From positions 806,001-870,000 of the forward strand of contig NZ_QENZ01000003.1 in NCBI RefSeq assembly GCF_003096835.1: a DNA stretch of 64,000 bases, given 5' to 3'. The notes beneath the pieces are model-generated. The model did not search any database and had not been told where the DNA came from. It saw nothing but the letters and a program-made list of their open reading frames with translations. This document shows, piece by piece, positions 5,502 to 15,931 of the stretch. Source of the stretch: Balneicella halophila (GTDB lineage: Bacteria; Bacteroidota; Bacteroidia; Bacteroidales; Balneicellaceae). Position numbers and translations under genes: made by a program. The number at the start of each line of letters is the position of its first letter. The first letter of the stretch is position 1.

Positions 5502-6821
5502 CTATAATAAATCACTGGCAACTTCAGCCAATTTACTACGCTCTCCTTTTACTAGATTCACATGGGTAAATATTTCTTGACCTCGCATACGATCTGCTGT
5601 ATAAGATAATCCATTAGAACGCTTATCTAAGAAAGGGGAGTCTATTTGGTCTATATCTCCTGTGAATACCATCTTAGTGCCTTCACCTGCTCGGGTTACA
5701 ATCGTTTTTACTTCATGTGGTGTTAGGTTTTGTGCTTCATCTACAATAAAATAAGCATTCGACAAGCTACGACCCCGGATGTAAGCTAAAGGAGTAATCA
5801 CTAACTTCTCCTCATCAAGCATTTGTTCAATTTTCTGCACCTCTTTGCTATGGAGTGCAAATTGGTTTTTAATCACCGCTAAGTTATCAAACAATGGCAA
5901 CATATAGGGGCCTATTTTTTCGTTAGCTGTTCCAGGCAAATAGCCCAAGTCCTTACTTGATAGAGCAACAATAGGACGTGCCAAATAAATATAATCATAC
6001 TTATCTGCCTGCTCTAATGCCGCTGCCAAGGCTAAGAGCGTTTTTCCCGTACCCGCCTTACCTGTTACGGTCACTAAATTCACATCAGTATTTAGTAAGG
6101 CATGCATTGCAAAGGTCTGCTCAGTATTTCGAGGCGTTATGCCATACACTTCTTCTTTTTCAATTCGCTCAAATAACTTTAGAATGGGGTTGTAATGAAC
6201 CAACACCCCCATACTGCCATTTTTCAGCAGGTAATACTCATGCCCCTCAGGCTGGGTAGGGAGTTTTACCTCATCCGCTGAGATTTCACTCTCATCGTAG
6301 AAGCGCTGAATAATACTGGTATCAATATCCAGAAATTCAGTAGCACCCTCCTTTGCTACGTAATCCATATCTTGCACCTTGTCGGTTTCATAATCTTCGG
6401 CAGGAATACCGATAGATTTCGCCTTCATACGCAGGTTAATGTCTTTAGTAACTAAAGCAACCTTCCTTTTAGGATATTTGTGAACGAAAAATTCAGCTAC
6501 TGCTAAGATTCTATGATCTGGAATGTTTTCCGGGAATGACATATTCATAGCGTCAGAGAAAGGCTTACCTGGTTCAATATATAATTTTCCTTTTTTCTTA
6601 CCCAAGCTTACTCCATTGTCAAACAATCCCTGACCAGCAAGTTTGTCTAGCTCGCGAACAAATGTACGCGCATTATAATTAATCTCCTCCGTACCTTTTT
6701 TGAATTTGTCCAACTCTTCAAGTACTGTTATAGGGATAACAATATCATGTTCTTGGAAATTATGAATTGCTCCACTGTCATGTAAGATTACGTTGGTGTC
6801 TAAAACGAATAATTTTTTCAT
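5502..6821 (-). CDS. PIN-PhoH family ATPase (YlaK/PhoH2-like)
   Basis: A 439-residue cytoplasmic protein with two domains. Residues 1 to about 150 are a PIN nuclease domain, with Asp8 in FVLDTNVILHD, the EELDKFKKG acidic/basic motif and a KVALVTKDINLR segment. The PhoH ATPase domain follows at about 225-439, with Walker A GKAGTGKT at 254-261 and Walker B FIVDEAQN near 358-365. Mycobacterial PhoH2 proteins of this architecture are described as RNA helicase/ribonucleases. It is alone on the minus strand, flanked by repeats on one side and a long AT-rich gap on the other. The biological target is not evident. Confidence 0.93.
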   Translation of the reverse strand: MKKLFVLDTNVILHDSGAIHNFQEHDIVIPITVLEELDKFKKGTEEINYNARTFVRELDKLAGQGLFDNGVSLGKKKGKLYIEPGKPFSDAMNMSFPENIPDHRILAVAEFFVHKYPKRKVALVTKDINLRMKAKSIGIPAEDYETDKVQDMDYVAKEGATEFLDIDTSIIQRFYDESEISADEVKLPTQPEGHEYYLLKNGSMGVLVHYNPILKLFERIEKEEVYGITPRNTEQTFAMHALLNTDVNLVTVTGKAGTGKTLLALAAALEQADKYDYIYLARPIVALSSKDLGYLPGTANEKIGPYMLPLFDNLAVIKNQFALHSKEVQKIEQMLDEEKLVITPLAYIRGRSLSNAYFIVDEAQNLTPHEVKTIVTRAGEGTKMVFTGDIDQIDSPFLDKRSNGLSYTADRMRGQEIFTHVNLVKGERSKLAEVASDLL

Positions 6822-7338
6822 ATATTATCTTAATGTTAAATTATAAAATATAGAAAAGAAAAGTTCCACTGCTAGTCACTGTAACTGATACTATGTTTTT
6901 TCTAAGTTTCACCCACTTCTTTTCATTGCATAAATATAGTGAATTAATTAGTATTGATGGAATCTTAATAAATGAACTATAGTAAATAACACTTTAAAGC
7001 TTTGTAAATCTTTATTTCAAACATAAATTTTGTCCGTTTCTTAATTAATGAAAGACTTTTTTGAATTTGCTTGTATGATTGTAACCCAACGTATGCAACT
7101 ATTTTGTATGTTAATTAATAATTAATTTGTGTATTATTACGATTTTATTATGTGATTTCATTTATTATGTGATATCTTTACCCACGATAATTATAAAAAT
7201 ATATTTTAATAGACCAAGACATTACTCATTTTCTACAGTTAATTCTCACTTTTCATTCACAATTGTTTATTTAATATAAGCAAGTAGTTTTTTGAAGTAC
7301 GATTGGTTTTATTATAATAAGTATTAAAGAATTTTATT
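6822..7338. other. 517-bp AT-rich intergenic region
   Basis: No gene is seen. This divergent gap must hold the promoters of the PhoH-like gene (leftwards) and the giant surface protein (rightwards). The only structured element I find is the direct repeat plus near-consensus -7 element at 7144-7180. The remainder is A/T-rich without clear hairpins. Confidence 0.6.
7144..7180 (+). promoter_or_regulatory. Direct repeat over a candidate promoter
   Basis: TTTATTATGTGAT occurs at 7144-7156 and again at 7161-7173, 17 bp apart. The second copy runs into TATCTTTA (7173-7180), one base off the TAnnTTTG consensus. It lies about 160 bp before the giant surface-protein gene. This suggests a regulator-bound promoter, but it is inference. 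Confidence 0.4.
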
Positions 7339-10300
7339 ATGAGACTTAAATCAATCTTTTTAAAATGCATACTACTCTTTTCTCTTGCAGTATGTTTAGC
7401 TATCCAAACAAACGGACAAGCTACTCTTAGTTTATCTCCGGCAAACTTGGAGATTTCAAACGGCTCTACAGAGCTAGAAACAATAGTAACAATGACAGAT
7501 TTAAGTGAAGGCTTTTCAACTGCAACTGTTACCATTTCATTTCCTACTGGTATTGCCTATAAATCAGGGAGCTTAAGTCTTGTCAGTACAAATGCCAATT
7601 TACAAATTGTAGAGTCTGATGTAAGTGATCCTCAGAATCCAGTCTTTTTAATTACCAAAACAGGTTCACCTGCCACTTTTACTATAGCAGACCGTATAGG
7701 CTTTAAAGTTAGTAGATATGCAGGTTGTGAGGCTAACGATAATATTTCTAGTGTTTTTCAAGATGAGGTTAAAGTTCAAATTGGGAGTAACATCGTTGAT
7801 AAACTTTCAGATGAATATAATCTTATAGCTCCATCAATTGTTCTTAGTCCCGTTTCAGATATTTCGGCTTCATATGGCCAAGTTTATCAAAGAGAAATGA
7901 CAATATTGAATGCAGGTTTAGGTGGAACAAGAAATGTATACTTCACAACTGATGAACCTGGAATATATAACCAAACTTCAATTTCTGCTGTTTTACATAG
8001 CAGTGATGGTACTACATCAACTATCTCTTTAGGTACTCCTTCATCATCTGGGTTACAAGATTTGTATACCATCAATGGAAGTAACCTGGGTAGTGATAAC
8101 TCATTTACTAATAATGAAAAAATTGTAATAACCGAAAGTTTTAACGTGGCAGAATGTGGAACAGCGCCAATTGAAACTCAATATTCTGCTGGTTGGGGTG
8201 ATGGGCCAACTAGTCTATGTCAATCATCTGATAGATCAGCTAAAGTAACTGTAAAAGATATAAAGCCTTCTGTTAGGGCTATATCACATAGTCCTGAGCT
8301 TACAGGAAACTCAATATGTAGCAATCTAGCATATAAAACACTTACAGTGACTTGGAAGAATACATCTGCAGTTGCAAATGTTGCTACAGCTATTCAAAAT
8401 ATTAATTTTTTAATGAGGGCATATGGTACTAATACTGAGTATATATATGATAGTGATTATTCAGAATATTATGACTATAAGCTTATTACACCAAATGGCG
8501 GGCAAGCATCAGTACCTTTGTCTCAAGCAACAGCTCCTGCAGCAAATGGTCAGAATAGGCTGGAAATTACTTTGGAGGATGCTTTTAATTCTGATGTTGA
8601 TGGTCCAGGTGGATTAGAGGATATCGATGGTGACGGGAACTATGATGATCTGCCTGCAGGTGAAGAAATTACTATTGAATTTAAATTAAGACTACATCCA
8701 GAATTATTATCGTGTAGTAATCCTACAATCCGAGCGAGGCCTTATACATGGATTACTTATAATACTGAATGTACAACGAGTACACAATCTGCTGGTTTAT
8801 GGCTTCAAAATCACTTTCGTAGAGAAATTTCTACAAGTGCCAATGGTTATATTCCAGTAAATACGTTTCCAGGTGAACCTTTTGAAACGGCTCTTTCGGC
8901 TAACCTAGTCACTAGGATTGATACTGAAGCTTCTGCTGATTCCAGATTGCAGTATGTTATCACACTGCCTGCAGGTTTTGACGGATCTGATATAAAACTC
9001 ATTGAAGGAAGATATCCTGCAAGAGGTGCCACGCTATCCAGTACTATAACAACAACTACTGATCCTACATCCGGAGAAACAACGATTGTTGTTACATCAG
9101 TAGATTATGTTGAGGAATTACATGTAGTTATGGATGTTACTAAGGATTGTAGTAACCCAAATGTGAATGACGATGAAGATATCAACATTAAATATGATTT
9201 AAATTATATCACGAATATAAATTATCCAAATTGTATAGAAAAGATTTCTTGCGATAATATTTTTACCACAAAAATGGAATCTTGCCCTGATCCTAATGAA
9301 GGTCCTTGTTACGGAGCTTCCACATTAGGAGTGAGAGTGCAACGTGCTGACAATTCATTAGGCTGGACTGATGAATCCATGACAACAAGACAGTCTAGAG
9401 CTAACATTAGTATCTTACAACAAAAAAGAGCACTATATTTGGATGATATAGAGGTACTTGCTTCAGGACGTCAGCGAACTGAAACTATAAATTTATACCA
9501 AGAACTAGCTGTTAAACTAGATAATTCTAATGGTAATCCGTTAACTCCAAAATCAATAGACATAACGTTTACTCGAGCAGGCAATACTTATAATGCAACA
9601 CTTGATGCATCAACCACTCCTAATAATGTTGAGGTGGTTCAGAATTCAGGTAATCAGGTTATTACTTGGGATTTGTCAAGTGCAATCTCCTCTTCTGGTA
9701 TTCCTGGAGGTAATTTGCAAGAGGGAGATACCTATATTACTGTAGCAACTTATCAGGTGACTTCAAAAAACCTTAAACTTACAGATATAAATTACGGAGA
9801 GCACTTTTATTTTTATAATATCAGCGATACCGGAAATAAAATGATTTGTGGTTATGATGATCTCATACCAGAAATGTATTTAATGCACACTGCAAATAAT
9901 GTAGGATCAAAGGTATGGAGAATATATTCATGTGATCCTAAAGCACTTGGAGAAAATGGACTATCTATGGCAAATAGATTTGATACAGGAGGTATTGAAT
10001 TTGTAGATGAATTTAGGCCGGCATTCCAACTTGATGAGTTTGTTATTACTATTCCTGCTGATGTTGATATGGATAGAGTTGAATATCTGCCTACAAAGCC
10101 TAAACCCAATGGTGTTGGAGTTGATGATAATAACGCACATAAAATTACATTAACTACAAGTGATGCAAATGCTACAAATCAAACGACTGTAAATGGTATT
10201 ACCTATAACTCTTACACTTTTAAAAACTCTAGTGATAGATTTAAGCCTGGAAGTGTTACAGTCAAAAATAATGTTGCAGGACATATCATCCCTTACTTAA

Positions 10301-13300
10301 GTGCAAGTTGTGATGCTACTACTAAAGCAAATATAGATATTGCAGTAAAAGTTAAGGATTATTATTATCATTACGCTGACCCTACTACACCAAGTGGTAC
10401 AGCATTAAAAGAGCCTAGATACAATTCAAGTGGTGTTAATAATAAAAATGTTACAGTTGTAAAGCCCGTACTAACTCTAACTAATTTAAGTGGAACACTT
10501 GATGTAACACAAGCCGAAGAACATTTTAACATAAGACTTAGAGTTACCAATGCTAATGCTCAATTTACTTATCTGTATGTACCTAATGAGCCAGATGTTG
10601 AAATAACAAGAATGGAAGATAACTCAGGTAATGTAATATCTTCTACGATAACTAATGATGGTGTTATTTTTGATTTACGAACAACTCATAATAAAAATGC
10701 TAGTCACGAGTATAAATTGTTTTTTAAATATACTACTTGTGAAGAAAAAAACTTTAAAATTTCGACAGGATGGGGTTGTGATGGTTTTCCTACAGATGCT
10801 TCTGATTTTTGTGATAACAATAAAGAAACGACCCTTACATTTCGATCTAGGCCTAATTTAATTCAGTTAAATAAGATTATATCTCCTTCTAGTATAGACT
10901 TATGTACTGATGCCCAGTATAAATTTATTGTCAATAGTGCTCAGGAAGCTAGTGTGTTATCGCCCACTTTAACAATAAACCTTAAAGCAGGGATGACAAT
11001 TAACAATTTTGAAGTAGAATATCCCTTAAATAGTAATAATTTTTATCCTGTAAATCCAGCTAGTGGATCGACATCAATGGAAAAAATATATGATTTATTT
11101 AGTTATAGCAATGCTCCTAACTTTTTACCAGGAACTACTGATGCAAATGGTAATTCAAATAATCGTCAGATTGGGGTTCGATACAATATTGCTACAGATT
11201 GTGAGTATATTTCTGGGACATCATATAAGTTAAGCATTGAAGGAATTAGTACTTGTGGAGAGCCCGCAAATGGTAATAATATCGTAACTAACAATGCCTA
11301 TATTTCAGGTGCAGAAAGTAAATATTCTATAATAAAAACATTTGAATATGTTGAGGGTGACCTTACAACTTGTTCAAATAATATGGGAGCAAAATTTAGA
11401 GGACAACATACGATTATTGCAGACAATAATATAGTAACAGGTAATAATGGTTTCATAATTATCCGTTTGCCAGAAAATTATAGTTATGTTCCAAATTCAT
11501 TTGTAGAAGAAACAACAACGGGGGCAACTATATCGTCTACTATTACAGATCCAACAACAGGAATAACAACGATTAGTATTAATATACCAGAAAACTTAGG
11601 GAATGCTGATGTAATTAGATACACTATTAATATTATCGAAGATACAGATGAGTTTGTAGAGTGTGGAGCTAAATTAATAGAAGTTTATAGTGTTGATGAA
11701 ATTGAAGGTCTCGAATGCTCAACAGCTCCAAATGGAAAGTGTGATAAATTAACTGTTCAAACATCTTTAACTACAGAAATAGAGATTGTTACAGAAAAAC
11801 CTACGGTAGAAATCATCGCTGGTAGCTTTATTTCTGCACATGGCGATGGGCTAAGCAATACATTATCAGTTGATTTCGACATTAAGAATACCTCACTTAT
11901 TGACTTAAGCCATGATTTGACAGTTAAAGTATATAATGATATTAATAGCAGTGGATCGGTAGATGCAGGTGATCAAGAGTTATTATCTAAAGACATAAAC
12001 TTTGTAGCAGCAGCTGGTGAATCTATATCTTCTTCTATCGTATTTGAAGATGTAAACCCAATTAAGATTTGTAATCTTTTACTAGTTATCTCACGCGATG
12101 ATAATATTTGTATATGTGAGGGAGACGTTAGGCCTATCTCTTTAGAATCAAATACAATGATTGATGGAATTGCAGGGGAAGACATAACAGTATGCGAAGA
12201 TGATATAACTCATTTGGTTGGCTCTGTGTTAAATGAAGAGTTTACCACCTATCAATGGTCTAGTACTACGACAGGAGCAACTGATTACCTGTCAAGTACA
12301 ACAGTAGCAACACCAACTTTTGAGTATAGTGGAGCACCTTTAACAAACCAGACATCTATTACTTATCAAGTACGTGTTACACAAGAGCAAGGATGTTCAT
12401 TCATAGATGAGGTTGTAGTGACTATACTGCCACTGCCTAGAGAACCTGCTATAACACCTAATACTCCTATTTGTGCATATGAAGATGCTGTTTTCACAGT
12501 AAGTGGTACTCAAAGTGATGTTTTAACATATGAAACCACAACAGGAGGATTACAGTCATTAACCTTCAGCAGTTCTGGTATTGCGACAATTACAAGCGTT
12601 GCAATTAGTGATGATGAAATACTAACTTTAGTATCTCTACAGAGTGGCTTGACAAGTTGTACCAGTGAGTTAAGCGGTTCTTCAACCGTTACAGTCAATG
12701 AGCTACCTGAAATAAGTGGGCCAACTTATGTCTATAAAGGCAATACAGTAACTCTAACAGCTACCACATCACCATCAACAACGGACGCATGGAGTATTAG
12801 TCCAACAGCTACTGTAGCAAGTATAGTTGCAAACGGTTCTACGCTAAATGTCACAGGAGTAAATACAGGAACTTCAGTAGTAACTTATACGAATGCTTTA
12901 GGTTGTATTGCAACCCATACGTTAGAGGTTCGAATTAATCCTATTGATGCGGTAGATGATGATTATACCGGAGATCCTATAAATGGAGCTGACGGAGGTA
13001 CAACAAGCAGTGTTCTAGAAAATGATACCTTGAATGGAGTTGAAGTTAATCCTAATGATGTTAATTTAACACCAGGAACAGCACCAACACCAACCGATGG
13101 AAGCATCACTATGAATGATGATGGTACTATTACTGTAGCTCCAGGAACAACAGCTGGAACTTATACAATGACTTACACTATTTGTGAGAAGTTGAATCCA
13201 GATAACTGTGATACAGCAACAGCTACTATATTGGTTGAGCCACCAGTAATTGATGCGGTAGATGATGATTATACCGGAGATCCTATAAATGGATCTGATG

Positions 13301-15834
13301 GAGGCACAACAAGCAGTGTTCTAGAAAATGAAACATTGAATGGAGATCCGGTTGATCCTGATGATGTTAATTTAACACCAGGAACAGCACCAACACCAAC
13401 CGATGGAAGCATCACTATGAATGATGATGGTACTATTACTGTAGCTCCAGGAACAACAGCTGGAACTTATACAATGACTTACACTATTTGTGAGAAGTTG
13501 AATCCAGATAACTGTGATACAGCAACAGCTACTATATTGGTTGAACCACCAGTAATTGATGCGGTAGATGATGATTATACCTCAACACCAATTGACGGTA
13601 TTGAAGGTGGTACTTTAGGCAATATTTTAGACAATGATACCTTAAATGGTGTATTGCTTGATCCTAATGATATAAATTTAATTCCAGGATTTAATCCACA
13701 ACCTGATGAAGGTAGTATTACAATGAATGCTGATGGTACTATTACTGTAGCACCTGGTACAACAGGAGGAATTTATGTAATGAATTACACTATCTGTGAG
13801 AAATTAAATCCGGCTAATTGTGATACTGCAGTGATAACAGTTGTTGTAAAATCTCCTGAGATTAATGCTGCAGATGATGATTATAGTTCGACTCCTATCC
13901 AGAGTGAAGCAGGAGGAGAATTAGGTAATGTATTAGATAACGATACCTTAAATGGAGCTGTTGTAAATCCTGACGAGATTTACTTAACGCCAGGATTAAA
14001 CCCCGCCCCATCAGAAGGAAGTATTGTGATGAATCCAGATGGAACACTTAGTGTGTCACCTAATACCACCCCAGGAGTTTACACAATGACTTATACCATT
14101 TGTGAGAAAGTAAATCCTGAGAACTGTGATAGTGCCATAGTTACTATAAAAGTAGAAGCTAATTCCTCAATCACGCTGGATAAGCAGGGCGTTTTCCAAG
14201 ATGAAAATTCAGATGGTAATGCACAAGCAGGTGAGACTGTCATCTATACATTTACAGTAAAAAACACAGGTAGTGTAGCACTTAGCAATGTTCATGTTGA
14301 TGACTCAAGGATAGGAGTAACAGACTTAGCTACTACCCCTTCTGATTTAGAAGCAGGAGAGAAAGGAACTGTCAGCTATAGTTACACATTGACAGCAGAA
14401 GATGTCAAAGCAGGAGAAGTATTAAACGTAGCTTATGTAGAAGGAACTACAAGCTTAGGAGATACTGTTACATCTTCTGATAGCGCAACAGTAGAATTCA
14501 ATACTGTAGAAGAGAATGGAGAGGTATCAGTTGAAAAGACAGCTGATAAGGAAATGTACGAAGAAGTAGGAGAAGATATAACCTACACGATTGTCGTAAA
14601 GAATACAGGTAATGTTGTGCTGACAAATGTCGTAGTGAGTGATCCATTGACAGGATTAGAGAAAGTAGTTGAAGAGTTAGACGTAGCTGCTTCAGTGAGC
14701 TTTACAACCGAGTATACAGTAACACAGTCAGATATAGATACAGGTTTTGTCAATAATGTTGTAACAGCAGAAGGGATAACACCATTAGGAAGTAATGTAA
14801 GTGATACAGATACAGCGACAGTGAAGTATGATTCTGCTGGGGGAGAAGAGAATGGAGAGGTGTCAGTTGAAAAGACAGCTGATAAGGAAATGTACGAAGA
14901 GGTAGGAGAGGTTATCACTTATAGCATTGTAGTAAAGAATACAGGCAATGTTGTGCTGACGAATGTCGTAGTGAGTGATCCATTAACAGGCTTAGAAAGA
15001 GTAGTTGAAGAGTTAGTTGTAGATGCTTCACTAAACTTTACAACCGAGTATACAGTAACACAGTCAGATATAGATACAGGTTTTGTAAATAATGTTGTAA
15101 GAGCAGAAGGGACAACACTATTAGGAAGTAGTGTAAGTGATACAGATACAGCGACAGTGAAGTATGATTCTGTTGGAGGAGAAAAGAATGGAGAAATCAC
15201 TGTTGAGAAGACAGCTGATAGGGAAAGCTATGAGGGAGTAGGAGAAGAGATAACCTACACGATTGTCTTAAAGAATACAGGTAATGTTTTGTTGACAAAT
15301 GTAAATGTTAAAGATCCATTGACTGGATTAAATGAAACAGTCTCAGAATTAGCAGTAGGAGAATCAATAGAGTTTACTGTTTATTACATTGCAACTAGAG
15401 AAGATATTACTAATAAGTCTATTGTAAATATTGTTTTCGCAGAAGGAGAACTTCCAGATGGAACAAAAGTTGATGATGAAACAGATGCAGTGGTAGTGTT
15501 TGAATGTCCAGGTTTTGATGATAATTTTAAGATTCCACAGGTAATAACACCGAATAATGATGGTCACAATGATACTTGGGAGGTTGCAGAATTAGAATTA
15601 AGAGCTATGTGTAGTGATGAGGTTAATAACGTTATGATTTTTAATAGATGGGGGGCTAAGGTTTATGAGAAGAGAAATTATATGTCTGACAGTGATAGAT
15701 TCTCAGGATATTCTACAAACAGCTTAGACTTCCAGGATGATGAGTTATTACCAGCAGGGGTATATTTCTATGTTATTGAATTGAATGATAAAATTGAGAA
15801 AACAGGTTATATATACCTGCTTTCGGAGGAGTAA
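7339..15834 (+). CDS. Giant T9SS-exported surface protein with DUF11 repeats
   Basis: A 2831-residue secreted protein. Residues 1-27 are a signal peptide (basic start, hydrophobic core, then TNGQA). Residues to about 1868 are Thr/Ser/Asn-rich, probably beta-sandwich domains with scattered cysteines; an Ig-like stretch near 1640-1780 resembles SprB-type adhesins. Four 102-aa repeats span 1869-2276 (each with DDDYT, LNG, DGTITVAPGTT-like and ICEKLNPxNCD motifs). One DUF11-like domain covers 2277-2391 and three 112-aa DUF11 repeats 2392-2727 (EKTADKE, ITYTIVVKNTGNVVLTNV). The last 100 residues (IPQVITPNNDGHNDTWEV, MIFNRWGAKVYE, LPAGVYFYVIEL) are the gliding-motility-associated C-terminal domain, a type B sorting signal for type IX secretion. 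Adhesin or gliding roles are plausible; the ligand is unknown. Confidence 0.93.
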   Translation: MRLKSIFLKCILLFSLAVCLAIQTNGQATLSLSPANLEISNGSTELETIVTMTDLSEGFSTATVTISFPTGIAYKSGSLSLVSTNANLQIVESDVSDPQNPVFLITKTGSPATFTIADRIGFKVSRYAGCEANDNISSVFQDEVKVQIGSNIVDKLSDEYNLIAPSIVLSPVSDISASYGQVYQREMTILNAGLGGTRNVYFTTDEPGIYNQTSISAVLHSSDGTTSTISLGTPSSSGLQDLYTINGSNLGSDNSFTNNEKIVITESFNVAECGTAPIETQYSAGWGDGPTSLCQSSDRSAKVTVKDIKPSVRAISHSPELTGNSICSNLAYKTLTVTWKNTSAVANVATAIQNINFLMRAYGTNTEYIYDSDYSEYYDYKLITPNGGQASVPLSQATAPAANGQNRLEITLEDAFNSDVDGPGGLEDIDGDGNYDDLPAGEEITIEFKLRLHPELLSCSNPTIRARPYTWITYNTECTTSTQSAGLWLQNHFRREISTSANGYIPVNTFPGEPFETALSANLVTRIDTEASADSRLQYVITLPAGFDGSDIKLIEGRYPARGATLSSTITTTTDPTSGETTIVVTSVDYVEELHVVMDVTKDCSNPNVNDDEDINIKYDLNYITNINYPNCIEKISCDNIFTTKMESCPDPNEGPCYGASTLGVRVQRADNSLGWTDESMTTRQSRANISILQQKRALYLDDIEVLASGRQRTETINLYQELAVKLDNSNGNPLTPKSIDITFTRAGNTYNATLDASTTPNNVEVVQNSGNQVITWDLSSAISSSGIPGGNLQEGDTYITVATYQVTSKNLKLTDINYGEHFYFYNISDTGNKMICGYDDLIPEMYLMHTANNVGSKVWRIYSCDPKALGENGLSMANRFDTGGIEFVDEFRPAFQLDEFVITIPADVDMDRVEYLPTKPKPNGVGVDDNNAHKITLTTSDANATNQTTVNGITYNSYTFKNSSDRFKPGSVTVKNNVAGHIIPYLSASCDATTKANIDIAVKVKDYYYHYADPTTPSGTALKEPRYNSSGVNNKNVTVVKPVLTLTNLSGTLDVTQAEEHFNIRLRVTNANAQFTYLYVPNEPDVEITRMEDNSGNVISSTITNDGVIFDLRTTHNKNASHEYKLFFKYTTCEEKNFKISTGWGCDGFPTDASDFCDNNKETTLTFRSRPNLIQLNKIISPSSIDLCTDAQYKFIVNSAQEASVLSPTLTINLKAGMTINNFEVEYPLNSNNFYPVNPASGSTSMEKIYDLFSYSNAPNFLPGTTDANGNSNNRQIGVRYNIATDCEYISGTSYKLSIEGISTCGEPANGNNIVTNNAYISGAESKYSIIKTFEYVEGDLTTCSNNMGAKFRGQHTIIADNNIVTGNNGFIIIRLPENYSYVPNSFVEETTTGATISSTITDPTTGITTISINIPENLGNADVIRYTINIIEDTDEFVECGAKLIEVYSVDEIEGLECSTAPNGKCDKLTVQTSLTTEIEIVTEKPTVEIIAGSFISAHGDGLSNTLSVDFDIKNTSLIDLSHDLTVKVYNDINSSGSVDAGDQELLSKDINFVAAAGESISSSIVFEDVNPIKICNLLLVISRDDNICICEGDVRPISLESNTMIDGIAGEDITVCEDDITHLVGSVLNEEFTTYQWSSTTTGATDYLSSTTVATPTFEYSGAPLTNQTSITYQVRVTQEQGCSFIDEVVVTILPLPREPAITPNTPICAYEDAVFTVSGTQSDVLTYETTTGGLQSLTFSSSGIATITSVAISDDEILTLVSLQSGLTSCTSELSGSSTVTVNELPEISGPTYVYKGNTVTLTATTSPSTTDAWSISPTATVASIVANGSTLNVTGVNTGTSVVTYTNALGCIATHTLEVRINPIDAVDDDYTGDPINGADGGTTSSVLENDTLNGVEVNPNDVNLTPGTAPTPTDGSITMNDDGTITVAPGTTAGTYTMTYTICEKLNPDNCDTATATILVEPPVIDAVDDDYTGDPINGSDGGTTSSVLENETLNGDPVDPDDVNLTPGTAPTPTDGSITMNDDGTITVAPGTTAGTYTMTYTICEKLNPDNCDTATATILVEPPVIDAVDDDYTSTPIDGIEGGTLGNILDNDTLNGVLLDPNDINLIPGFNPQPDEGSITMNADGTITVAPGTTGGIYVMNYTICEKLNPANCDTAVITVVVKSPEINAADDDYSSTPIQSEAGGELGNVLDNDTLNGAVVNPDEIYLTPGLNPAPSEGSIVMNPDGTLSVSPNTTPGVYTMTYTICEKVNPENCDSAIVTIKVEANSSITLDKQGVFQDENSDGNAQAGETVIYTFTVKNTGSVALSNVHVDDSRIGVTDLATTPSDLEAGEKGTVSYSYTLTAEDVKAGEVLNVAYVEGTTSLGDTVTSSDSATVEFNTVEENGEVSVEKTADKEMYEEVGEDITYTIVVKNTGNVVLTNVVVSDPLTGLEKVVEELDVAASVSFTTEYTVTQSDIDTGFVNNVVTAEGITPLGSNVSDTDTATVKYDSAGGEENGEVSVEKTADKEMYEEVGEVITYSIVVKNTGNVVLTNVVVSDPLTGLERVVEELVVDASLNFTTEYTVTQSDIDTGFVNNVVRAEGTTLLGSSVSDTDTATVKYDSVGGEKNGEITVEKTADRESYEGVGEEITYTIVLKNTGNVLLTNVNVKDPLTGLNETVSELAVGESIEFTVYYIATREDITNKSIVNIVFAEGELPDGTKVDDETDAVVVFECPGFDDNFKIPQVITPNNDGHNDTWEVAELELRAMCSDEVNNVMIFNRWGAKVYEKRNYMSDSDRFSGYSTNSLDFQDDELLPAGVYFYVIELNDKIEKTGYIYLLSEE
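12943..14166 (+). repeat. Four tandem 306-bp coding repeats
   Basis: Units start at 12943, 13249, 13555 and 13861, exactly 306 bp apart, and encode 102-residue domains. Units 1 and 2 are identical over about 182 bp (13057-13238 versus 13363-13544), while 3 and 4 have diverged. This indicates a recent duplication or gene conversion. Confidence 0.95.
14512..15519 (+). repeat. Three tandem 336-bp DUF11-type coding repeats
   Basis: The ENGE/KNGE motif recurs at 14512, 14848 and 15184, exactly 336 bp (112 codons) apart. Units 1 and 2 share long near-identical DNA stretches and unit 3 is more diverged. Each unit encodes the NTGNV-containing DUF11 fold, probably a stalk module. Confidence 0.93.
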
Positions 15835-15858: not shown

Positions 15859-15893
15859 ATAGGAGTTTTTATTATAAATGCTCCTATATTTTT
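15859..15893 (+). terminator. Probable terminator of the giant protein gene
   Basis: ATAGGAG (15859-15865) pairs with CTCCTAT (15881-15887) around a 15-nt AT-rich loop, followed by a T-rich tract. It lies 25 bp after the stop codon. Confidence 0.7.
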
Positions 15894-15923
15894 TTAAATT
15901 TCTTTTTTCAGTAGAAAAATGTT

Positions 15924-15931
15924 TACCTTTG
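15924..15931 (+). promoter_or_regulatory. -7 promoter element of rpsA
   Basis: TACCTTTG is an exact TAnnTTTG match, 57 bp before the rpsA ATG and directly after the upstream terminator. A -33 TTTG is not clear. Confidence 0.65.

Follow-up and report, generated by a model that had tools for sequence, protein, structure and literature searches.

The window, meaning the whole 64,000-nucleotide stretch analysed, carries at 7339-15834 of the plus strand a frame of 2,831 amino acids that begins with ATG and has no internal stops in the ORF translation. It lies among housekeeping genes, in the order rpoA, rplQ, eno, phoH, the adhesin gene (as we call this frame), rpsA, a beta-lactamase-fold gene, PAP2, guaA and bipA. 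A divergent PIN/PhoH gene flanks it across a gap of 517 bp upstream, and rpsA follows after 154 bp. The genome assembly has 11 contigs that total 2.09 Mb, with a completeness of 98.2%. The features of the locus are listed below.

7339..7419, plus strand (residues 1-27): signal-peptide-like N-terminus, judged by eye from the sequence
7420..12165, plus strand (residues ~28-1609): cysteine-rich head module, a predicted chain of Ig-like beta-sandwiches (relatives, alignments, AlphaFold2, fold searches)
8611..8649, plus strand (residues 425-437): DxDGDGxxDD loop within the head, of Ca2+-binding type by look (alignment A1)
12166..12945, plus strand (residues 1610-1869): unassigned linker with a weak Ig-like signal (Ig_7 E 0.18, below cut-off; AlphaFold2 confidence mostly <50)
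12946..14169, plus strand (residues 1870-2277): four 102-aa Big_9 repeats, each with ICEK.NP.NCD (Pfam Big_9, all four units)
14170..15504, plus strand (residues ~2278-2722): four DUF7507 (CLIPPER_2) stalk domains (Pfam)
15529..15831, plus strand (residues 2731-2831): type B T9SS sorting domain (CHU_C / TIGR04131; Pfam, NCBIfam)
15924..15931, plus strand: element TACCTTTG before rpsA, which we take to be a Bacteroidota-type -7 motif (consensus match only)

The anatomy that a sequence-only reading had predicted for this protein is borne out: the frame is intact, and the repeats, a DUF7507 array and a type B tail were all located. The N-terminal letters MRLKSIFLKCILLFSLAVCLAIQTNGQ resemble a signal peptide by eye. 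The 102-aa units begin at residues 1870, 1972, 2074 and 2176 and share 58 to 96 of their 102 residues in pairwise comparison, with units 1 and 2 the most alike. Their ICEKLNPxNCD motif had been proposed as the possible mark of a new or poorly described stalk module, a candidate that we rejected because Big_9 matches all four units (E up to 0.01; unit 1, the one for which the cut-off is shown, scores 25.2 against 23.6 bits). On the whole protein, Pfam places Big_9 over four stretches at 24.7 against 23.6 bits. The second repeat array is also real, but it is not the DUF11 array first described; it consists of four DUF7507 domains (253 against 27 bits, E 2e-76, four tandem stretches), and the DUF11 and DUF7619 matches that overlap them are weaker relatives, also over their own cut-offs. 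According to the sections of PMC12617251 used here, DUF7507 received its new name CLIPPER_2 from the group that determined the structure of an isopeptide-bonded DUF11 domain, and both DUF11 and DUF7507 occur in the stalks of fibrillar adhesins, often beside CHU_C. Lys, Asp and Asn stand at aligned places in all four DUF7507 units, and the spacing in unit 1 (K2282, D2322, N2363; +40/+81) is close to that of the published exemplar (K72, D112, N152; +40/+80), a pattern that would fit isopeptide bonds in the stalk. At the C-terminus, CHU_C (residues 2731-2827; 79.2 against 27 bits, E 2.6e-22) and TIGR04131 (37 against 35 bits) both lie above their curated cut-offs, which marks the protein as type B cargo; TIGR04131 and TIGR01451 are its NCBIfam matches. 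The SprB repeat PF13573 is absent among the 12 Pfam families found in the protein at E up to 1. The stalk and tail are of known types, and together they support the earlier claim of a T9SS surface protein with a likely role in adhesion.

The long upstream region had been read as a sign of dedicated regulation, which we find unsupported. The 517-bp gap has a GC content of 22% and folds worse than its own shuffles (z +2.4). Rfam matches nothing in it at the gathering threshold, and the number of promoter-like sites in 6500-7400 is close to that expected by chance (10 against 6.7 +/- 2.5). An RNA element or dedicated regulation 5' of the adhesin gene was rejected on the Rfam search, the folding and the promoter-site counts. 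Single-gene transcription is plausible given the divergent phoH gene and the -7 element before rpsA, and that element suggests that rpsA has a transcription start of its own. On the 3' side of the adhesin gene, at about 15859-15895, a hairpin whose loop spans 15 bases, together with a T run, can be seen by eye; a hairpin scan restricted to loops of 3-8 has no entry for that strand at this place.

The N-terminal part of the protein, about 1,840 residues, had been described as lacking any assigned domain. This was right, and most of the stretch proves to be a conserved and widespread family. NCBIfam gives no match in residues 1-1868, no Pfam family has its best stretch there over cut-off, and the head itself is matched by neither library. 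With residues 28-1868 as the query, matches come from 19 of the 393 genomes of the order, the window genome among them. Four others (G115, G266, G199 and G239) match most of the query; the remaining 14 comprise 13 whose match is confined to residues ~1601-1868 and one, G095, with a match over residues 49-276. When the phylum is sampled evenly, residues 28-1042 find matches in 13 of 392 genomes, again counting the window genome. A scan of genome records found at least 137 relatives, of which 79 loci were kept; the scan selects for one motif, the acidic loop, the conservation of which is there by construction. Among the matches listed are Zobellia, Flavobacterium, Maribacter, Lutibacter, Croceitalea, Porphyromonas gulae, Mariniphaga, many Saprospiraceae and two records titled Chlorobi. 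The head family is widespread in the phylum, though not common.

Alignments show how much of the head is held in common. In an eight-sequence alignment (A1), about 1,550 residues are co-linear; identity to the window protein is 21-27%, many cysteines are invariant, and the acidic loop DxDxDGxxDD stands in all eight rows. Co-linearity of the head extends over ~1,550 residues at 19-31% identity to the window protein. In a 61-row alignment, 20 of the cysteines in the window protein fall in columns with at least 85% conservation, and disulfides are probable, with covariation too saturated to assign pairs. In the even phylum sample, the acidic loop is present in strict or relaxed pattern at 9 of 11 loci whose match spans it, a count that leaves out the window and includes paralogues within one genome; by its residues the loop may bind Ca2+. 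Library matches among the eight head members are CARDB (E 0.0013), DUF11 (0.0076) and TIGR01451 (0.0011), each in one member, and no description of the family was seen among the papers that literature searches listed. Residues ~28-1609 are one co-linear, cysteine-rich family that has no Pfam or NCBIfam model. The head is an undescribed family in the libraries searched, and boundaries are now set for a large conserved module outside those libraries.

We modelled the head with AlphaFold2, using the window sequence together with relatives from the genome-record scan. Mean pLDDT is 83.5 for residues 28-1042; residues 1040-1609 are mostly above 90, and residues ~1622-1850 are under 50. Both head models are chains of beta-sandwiches. 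The predicted model of residues 28-305 best matches antigen I/II C-domains (3opu_A, Z 14.1, rmsd 4.7, 262 aligned), the fold of which we take to be that named tandem DEv-IgG. A match to PrgB over 515 residues has a similar score (Z 13.8) but an rmsd of 15.9. Residues 1040-1609 resemble single pilin domains (Z 10.8-11.7, rmsd 2.6-3.0) and ClfA (Z 10.0-10.5, rmsd about 19); taken as a chain, they resemble integrin legs (Z up to 14.7, rmsd 10.7). Ig-like chains score broadly, and a common fold says nothing on function; in two fold-search lists no chain was seen to cover the whole head as one body. Relatives of solved structure were also sought by sequence and rejected, the one match being due to chance (E 0.65). 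Members of the antigen I/II family have an A-V-P region architecture and an LPXTG anchor, and Pfam names no A-V-P or LPXTG part in the window protein, which has a T9SS tail instead. As modelled, the resemblance to antigen I/II is one of fold only.

From fold and architecture together we infer a role in adhesion. The same models could describe a structural fibre or matrix protein (a sheath, a capsule scaffold or a biofilm matrix) that has no specific ligand and in which the head is only further, mechanically stable stalk: the parts with high model confidence consist of Ig-like sandwiches, integrin legs and PrgB-type stacks reach scores similar to those of adhesin domains, and Pfam and NCBIfam find no ligand-binding domain of known specificity in the protein. 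We consider this unlikely, however, as the head has stayed co-linear over ~1,550 residues at 19-31% identity while the tails vary, which suggests a specific job, and we retain an adhesive head as the preferred reading.

The variation in tails was examined at the 52 of 79 loci where the end of the frame lies within the contig; with L158 left out for a masked stretch, the scan covered 51 C-termini. Among the matches listed, Pfam assigns 24 of the 51 to type B (CHU_C), 11 to type A (Por_Secre_tail) and the rest to neither. A local CHU_C model also calls L154 type B where Pfam has type A, so that n=24 is kept for type B, and for type A the local model counts 12 (L149 extra). Among these matches, 13 of the 24 type B genes have a PorP/SprF-like gene that starts within 220 bases past their end, against 0 of the other 27 genes (Fisher p 5e-6 with loci treated as independent, some being akin to one another, as in several Maribacter and Mariniphaga). 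At least 1 kb of DNA lies past the gene at 23 of the 24 type B loci; among the other 27, L113 and L124 fall short of this. The next gene after the PorP-like one is PorE-like at 12 of the 13 loci, and at the 13th the contig ends. Pfam confirms five such pairs; all five PorE-like proteins have OmpA and PD40, and four have CarboxypepD_reg. The other 11 type B relatives are without an adjacent shuttle, one of them (L150) having only 269 bp of DNA past the gene. A C-x-C tail is absent from all 13 shuttles of the relatives and from the PorP of the window genome. On a head tree with 39 rows of known tail, tail type changes at least 11 times, a tree-dependent count from a quick method in which the window row is a long branch, and one made without a shuffle control.

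Two unusual arrangements were seen among the relatives. At L087, L092, L093 and L096, which are of Mariniphaga type, a second pair of PorP-like and PorE-like genes lies upstream, such that two shuttle genes flank the head gene. At L077 (635-11205, in G115) and L090, two head proteins of one genome stand in tandem as 1,715-aa frames; both end in an SprB-repeat-like stretch (by eye), and L090 is without a PorP-like gene.

The window genome has what type B cargo needs, namely a T9SS translocon (SprA, GldL) and a PorP/SprF-family shuttle, the single PorP_SprF match being the only shuttle detected. A 668-aa PorE-like frame with a TPR-like start (by eye) and an OmpA domain (Pfam model) begins about 30 bp after PorP. 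Six CHU_C matches exceed the cut-off, that of the adhesin gene included, and there is one Por_Secre_tail match. By coordinates, none of the six type B matches adjoins PorP, the nearest being about 39 kb away. Directly 3' of the adhesin gene there is no porP/sprF-like gene; the next gene, rpsA, encodes a six-S1-domain protein. The adhesin gene is an orphan type B cargo gene in this genome. Its CTD is 58, 45, 41, 39 and 24% identical to the other five.

Some of those other type B genes are irregular in themselves. At L072 11900-12641 (contig C3, about 617.9-618.6 kb), an in-frame TAG separates a 471-aa frame from a CHU_C piece, possibly through a pseudogene, an assembly error or readthrough. At L073 4757-8318 (contig C4, about 12.8-16.3 kb, minus strand), another type B CTD gene is broken across two reading frames. 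Two of the six type B genes thus look interrupted. A further frame with a CHU_C end, at L074 3575-17170 (contig C3, about 704.6-718.2 kb), runs to 4,531 aa from stop to stop and is larger than the adhesin.

Published work on type B systems bears directly on this arrangement. In the portions of PMC12618676 used here, F. johnsoniae type B domains require a PorP/SprF-family shuttle. The gene for one substrate, Fjoh_3952, is followed by a shuttle gene and then a PorE-like gene, and the protein forms static foci only; a wall-anchored complex is the authors' proposal, and that PorE makes the complex static falls short of proof (PMC12618676). In the same portions of that study, the operons of mobile, SprB-like substrates contain no PorE-like gene. 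A single orphan shuttle serves three orphan substrates, all assigned to the gliding machinery, and one of these forms foci that are mostly static and move in 3% of cells (PMC12618676). For P. gingivalis, the part of PMC9143113 used here places PorE, PorP and PG1035 in one complex. The C-x-C tail of SprF couples it to the gliding track and is needed for gliding but dispensable for export, as stated in the sections used of PMC12635249.

These findings weigh on gliding, which had been named beside adhesion and prey or host contact as a possible function; adhesion finds support, and gliding we judge less likely than static anchoring. Were the protein an SprB-like gliding adhesin, its type B tail would load it on a shuttle that rides the GldK/GldJ track and pulls the cell along. 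Its tail and giant size would suit such a role, as would GldL, GldB (over cut-off) and a GldJ-like protein (strong but below cut-off, 419 against 458 bits) in the genome. Because these gliding genes are present, and because the orphan type B substrates reported in the cited parts of PMC12618676 are assigned to the gliding machinery, we hold the static reading with less confidence than we otherwise would. Against gliding, the single PorP-like shuttle detected contains just one Cys, ends in KKRFKSPRYF and so is without the C-x-C tail needed for track attachment (PMC12635249, in part); it adjoins a PorE-like gene, unlike the mobile substrates described in the part of PMC12618676 used; and the protein is without SprB repeats. 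Gliding is in our view improbable. The orphan position of the gene and the interruption of two other type B genes could mean that there is no working surface protein here, for want of a matching shuttle and hence of export or through decay of the family in this genome, but this is very doubtful given an intact 8.5-kb frame, the T9SS, PorP and PorE-like genes, and published orphan substrates that use a distant shuttle (PMC12618676, in the portions used).

On balance we favour, with moderate confidence, a static, wall-linked fibrillar adhesin held through the genome's PorP-PorE pair, since the published shuttle/PorE logic would apply here and the shuttles of both the relatives and the window genome are without C-x-C. 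Sec would carry the protein into the periplasm, and the type B CTD would direct its passage through SprA/Sov, the T9SS translocon. The PorP/SprF-type barrel encoded elsewhere in the genome would then take it up and grip its C-terminus, and PorE would tie the barrel to peptidoglycan. The adhesin would stand as a static fibre, its stalk of CLIPPER_2 (isopeptide) and Big_9 domains close to the cell and its disulfide-rich, Ig-like head of ~1,580 residues outermost, where it could contact a surface, a glycan or another cell. Both the use of this PorP and the static anchoring are argued by analogy with the published systems. With six type B matches (two in interrupted genes), one detected shuttle and one PorE-like neighbour, this genome is a clean natural test of the shuttle/PorE logic of type B secretion, to which the head module is now linked. 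More tentatively, and with the balance leaning against it, the head may represent a new Bacteroidota adhesin superfamily, a disulfide-stapled counterpart of the antigen I/II-type domains of Gram-positive bacteria that evolution has moved between tails (type A, type B with PorP/PorE, orphan type B, or none), its destination changing accordingly among release, LPS linkage and peptidoglycan linkage.

Several known systems invite comparison. By tail and gene order, the closest are Fjoh_3952/3951/3950 of F. johnsoniae and PG1035-PorP-PorE of P. gingivalis, which share the type B sorting domain. The three-gene order of the Fjoh_3952 triad recurs in 12 relatives of the adhesin, and shuttle tails are without C-x-C; as in P. 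gingivalis, one PorP is detected in the window genome. Unlike in these systems, the window cargo gene lies alone between phoH and rpsA, and PG1035, at ~50 kDa, is too small to hold a head of ~1,580 residues. SprB is similar in its giant size and type B CTD but differs in that the window protein has no SprB repeats and no adjacent SprF, and no C-x-C shuttle was found in the genome. The antigen I/II C-domains (SpaP, SspB, BspA, AspA) and the Ig-like domains of PrgB resemble the head in forming a chain of sandwiches and, for residues 28-305, in the predicted fold (Z 14.1, rmsd 4.7 to SpaP), whereas identity is 5-10%, and the window head has conserved cysteines, takes another export route and comes from another phylum. 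The CLIPPER/CLIPPER_2 (DUF11/DUF7507) adhesins share the tandem DUF7507 stalk, the Lys-Asp-Asn pattern, the CHU_C anchor and the signal-peptide-like start; to these the window protein adds a head of ~1,580 residues that lies outside their models.
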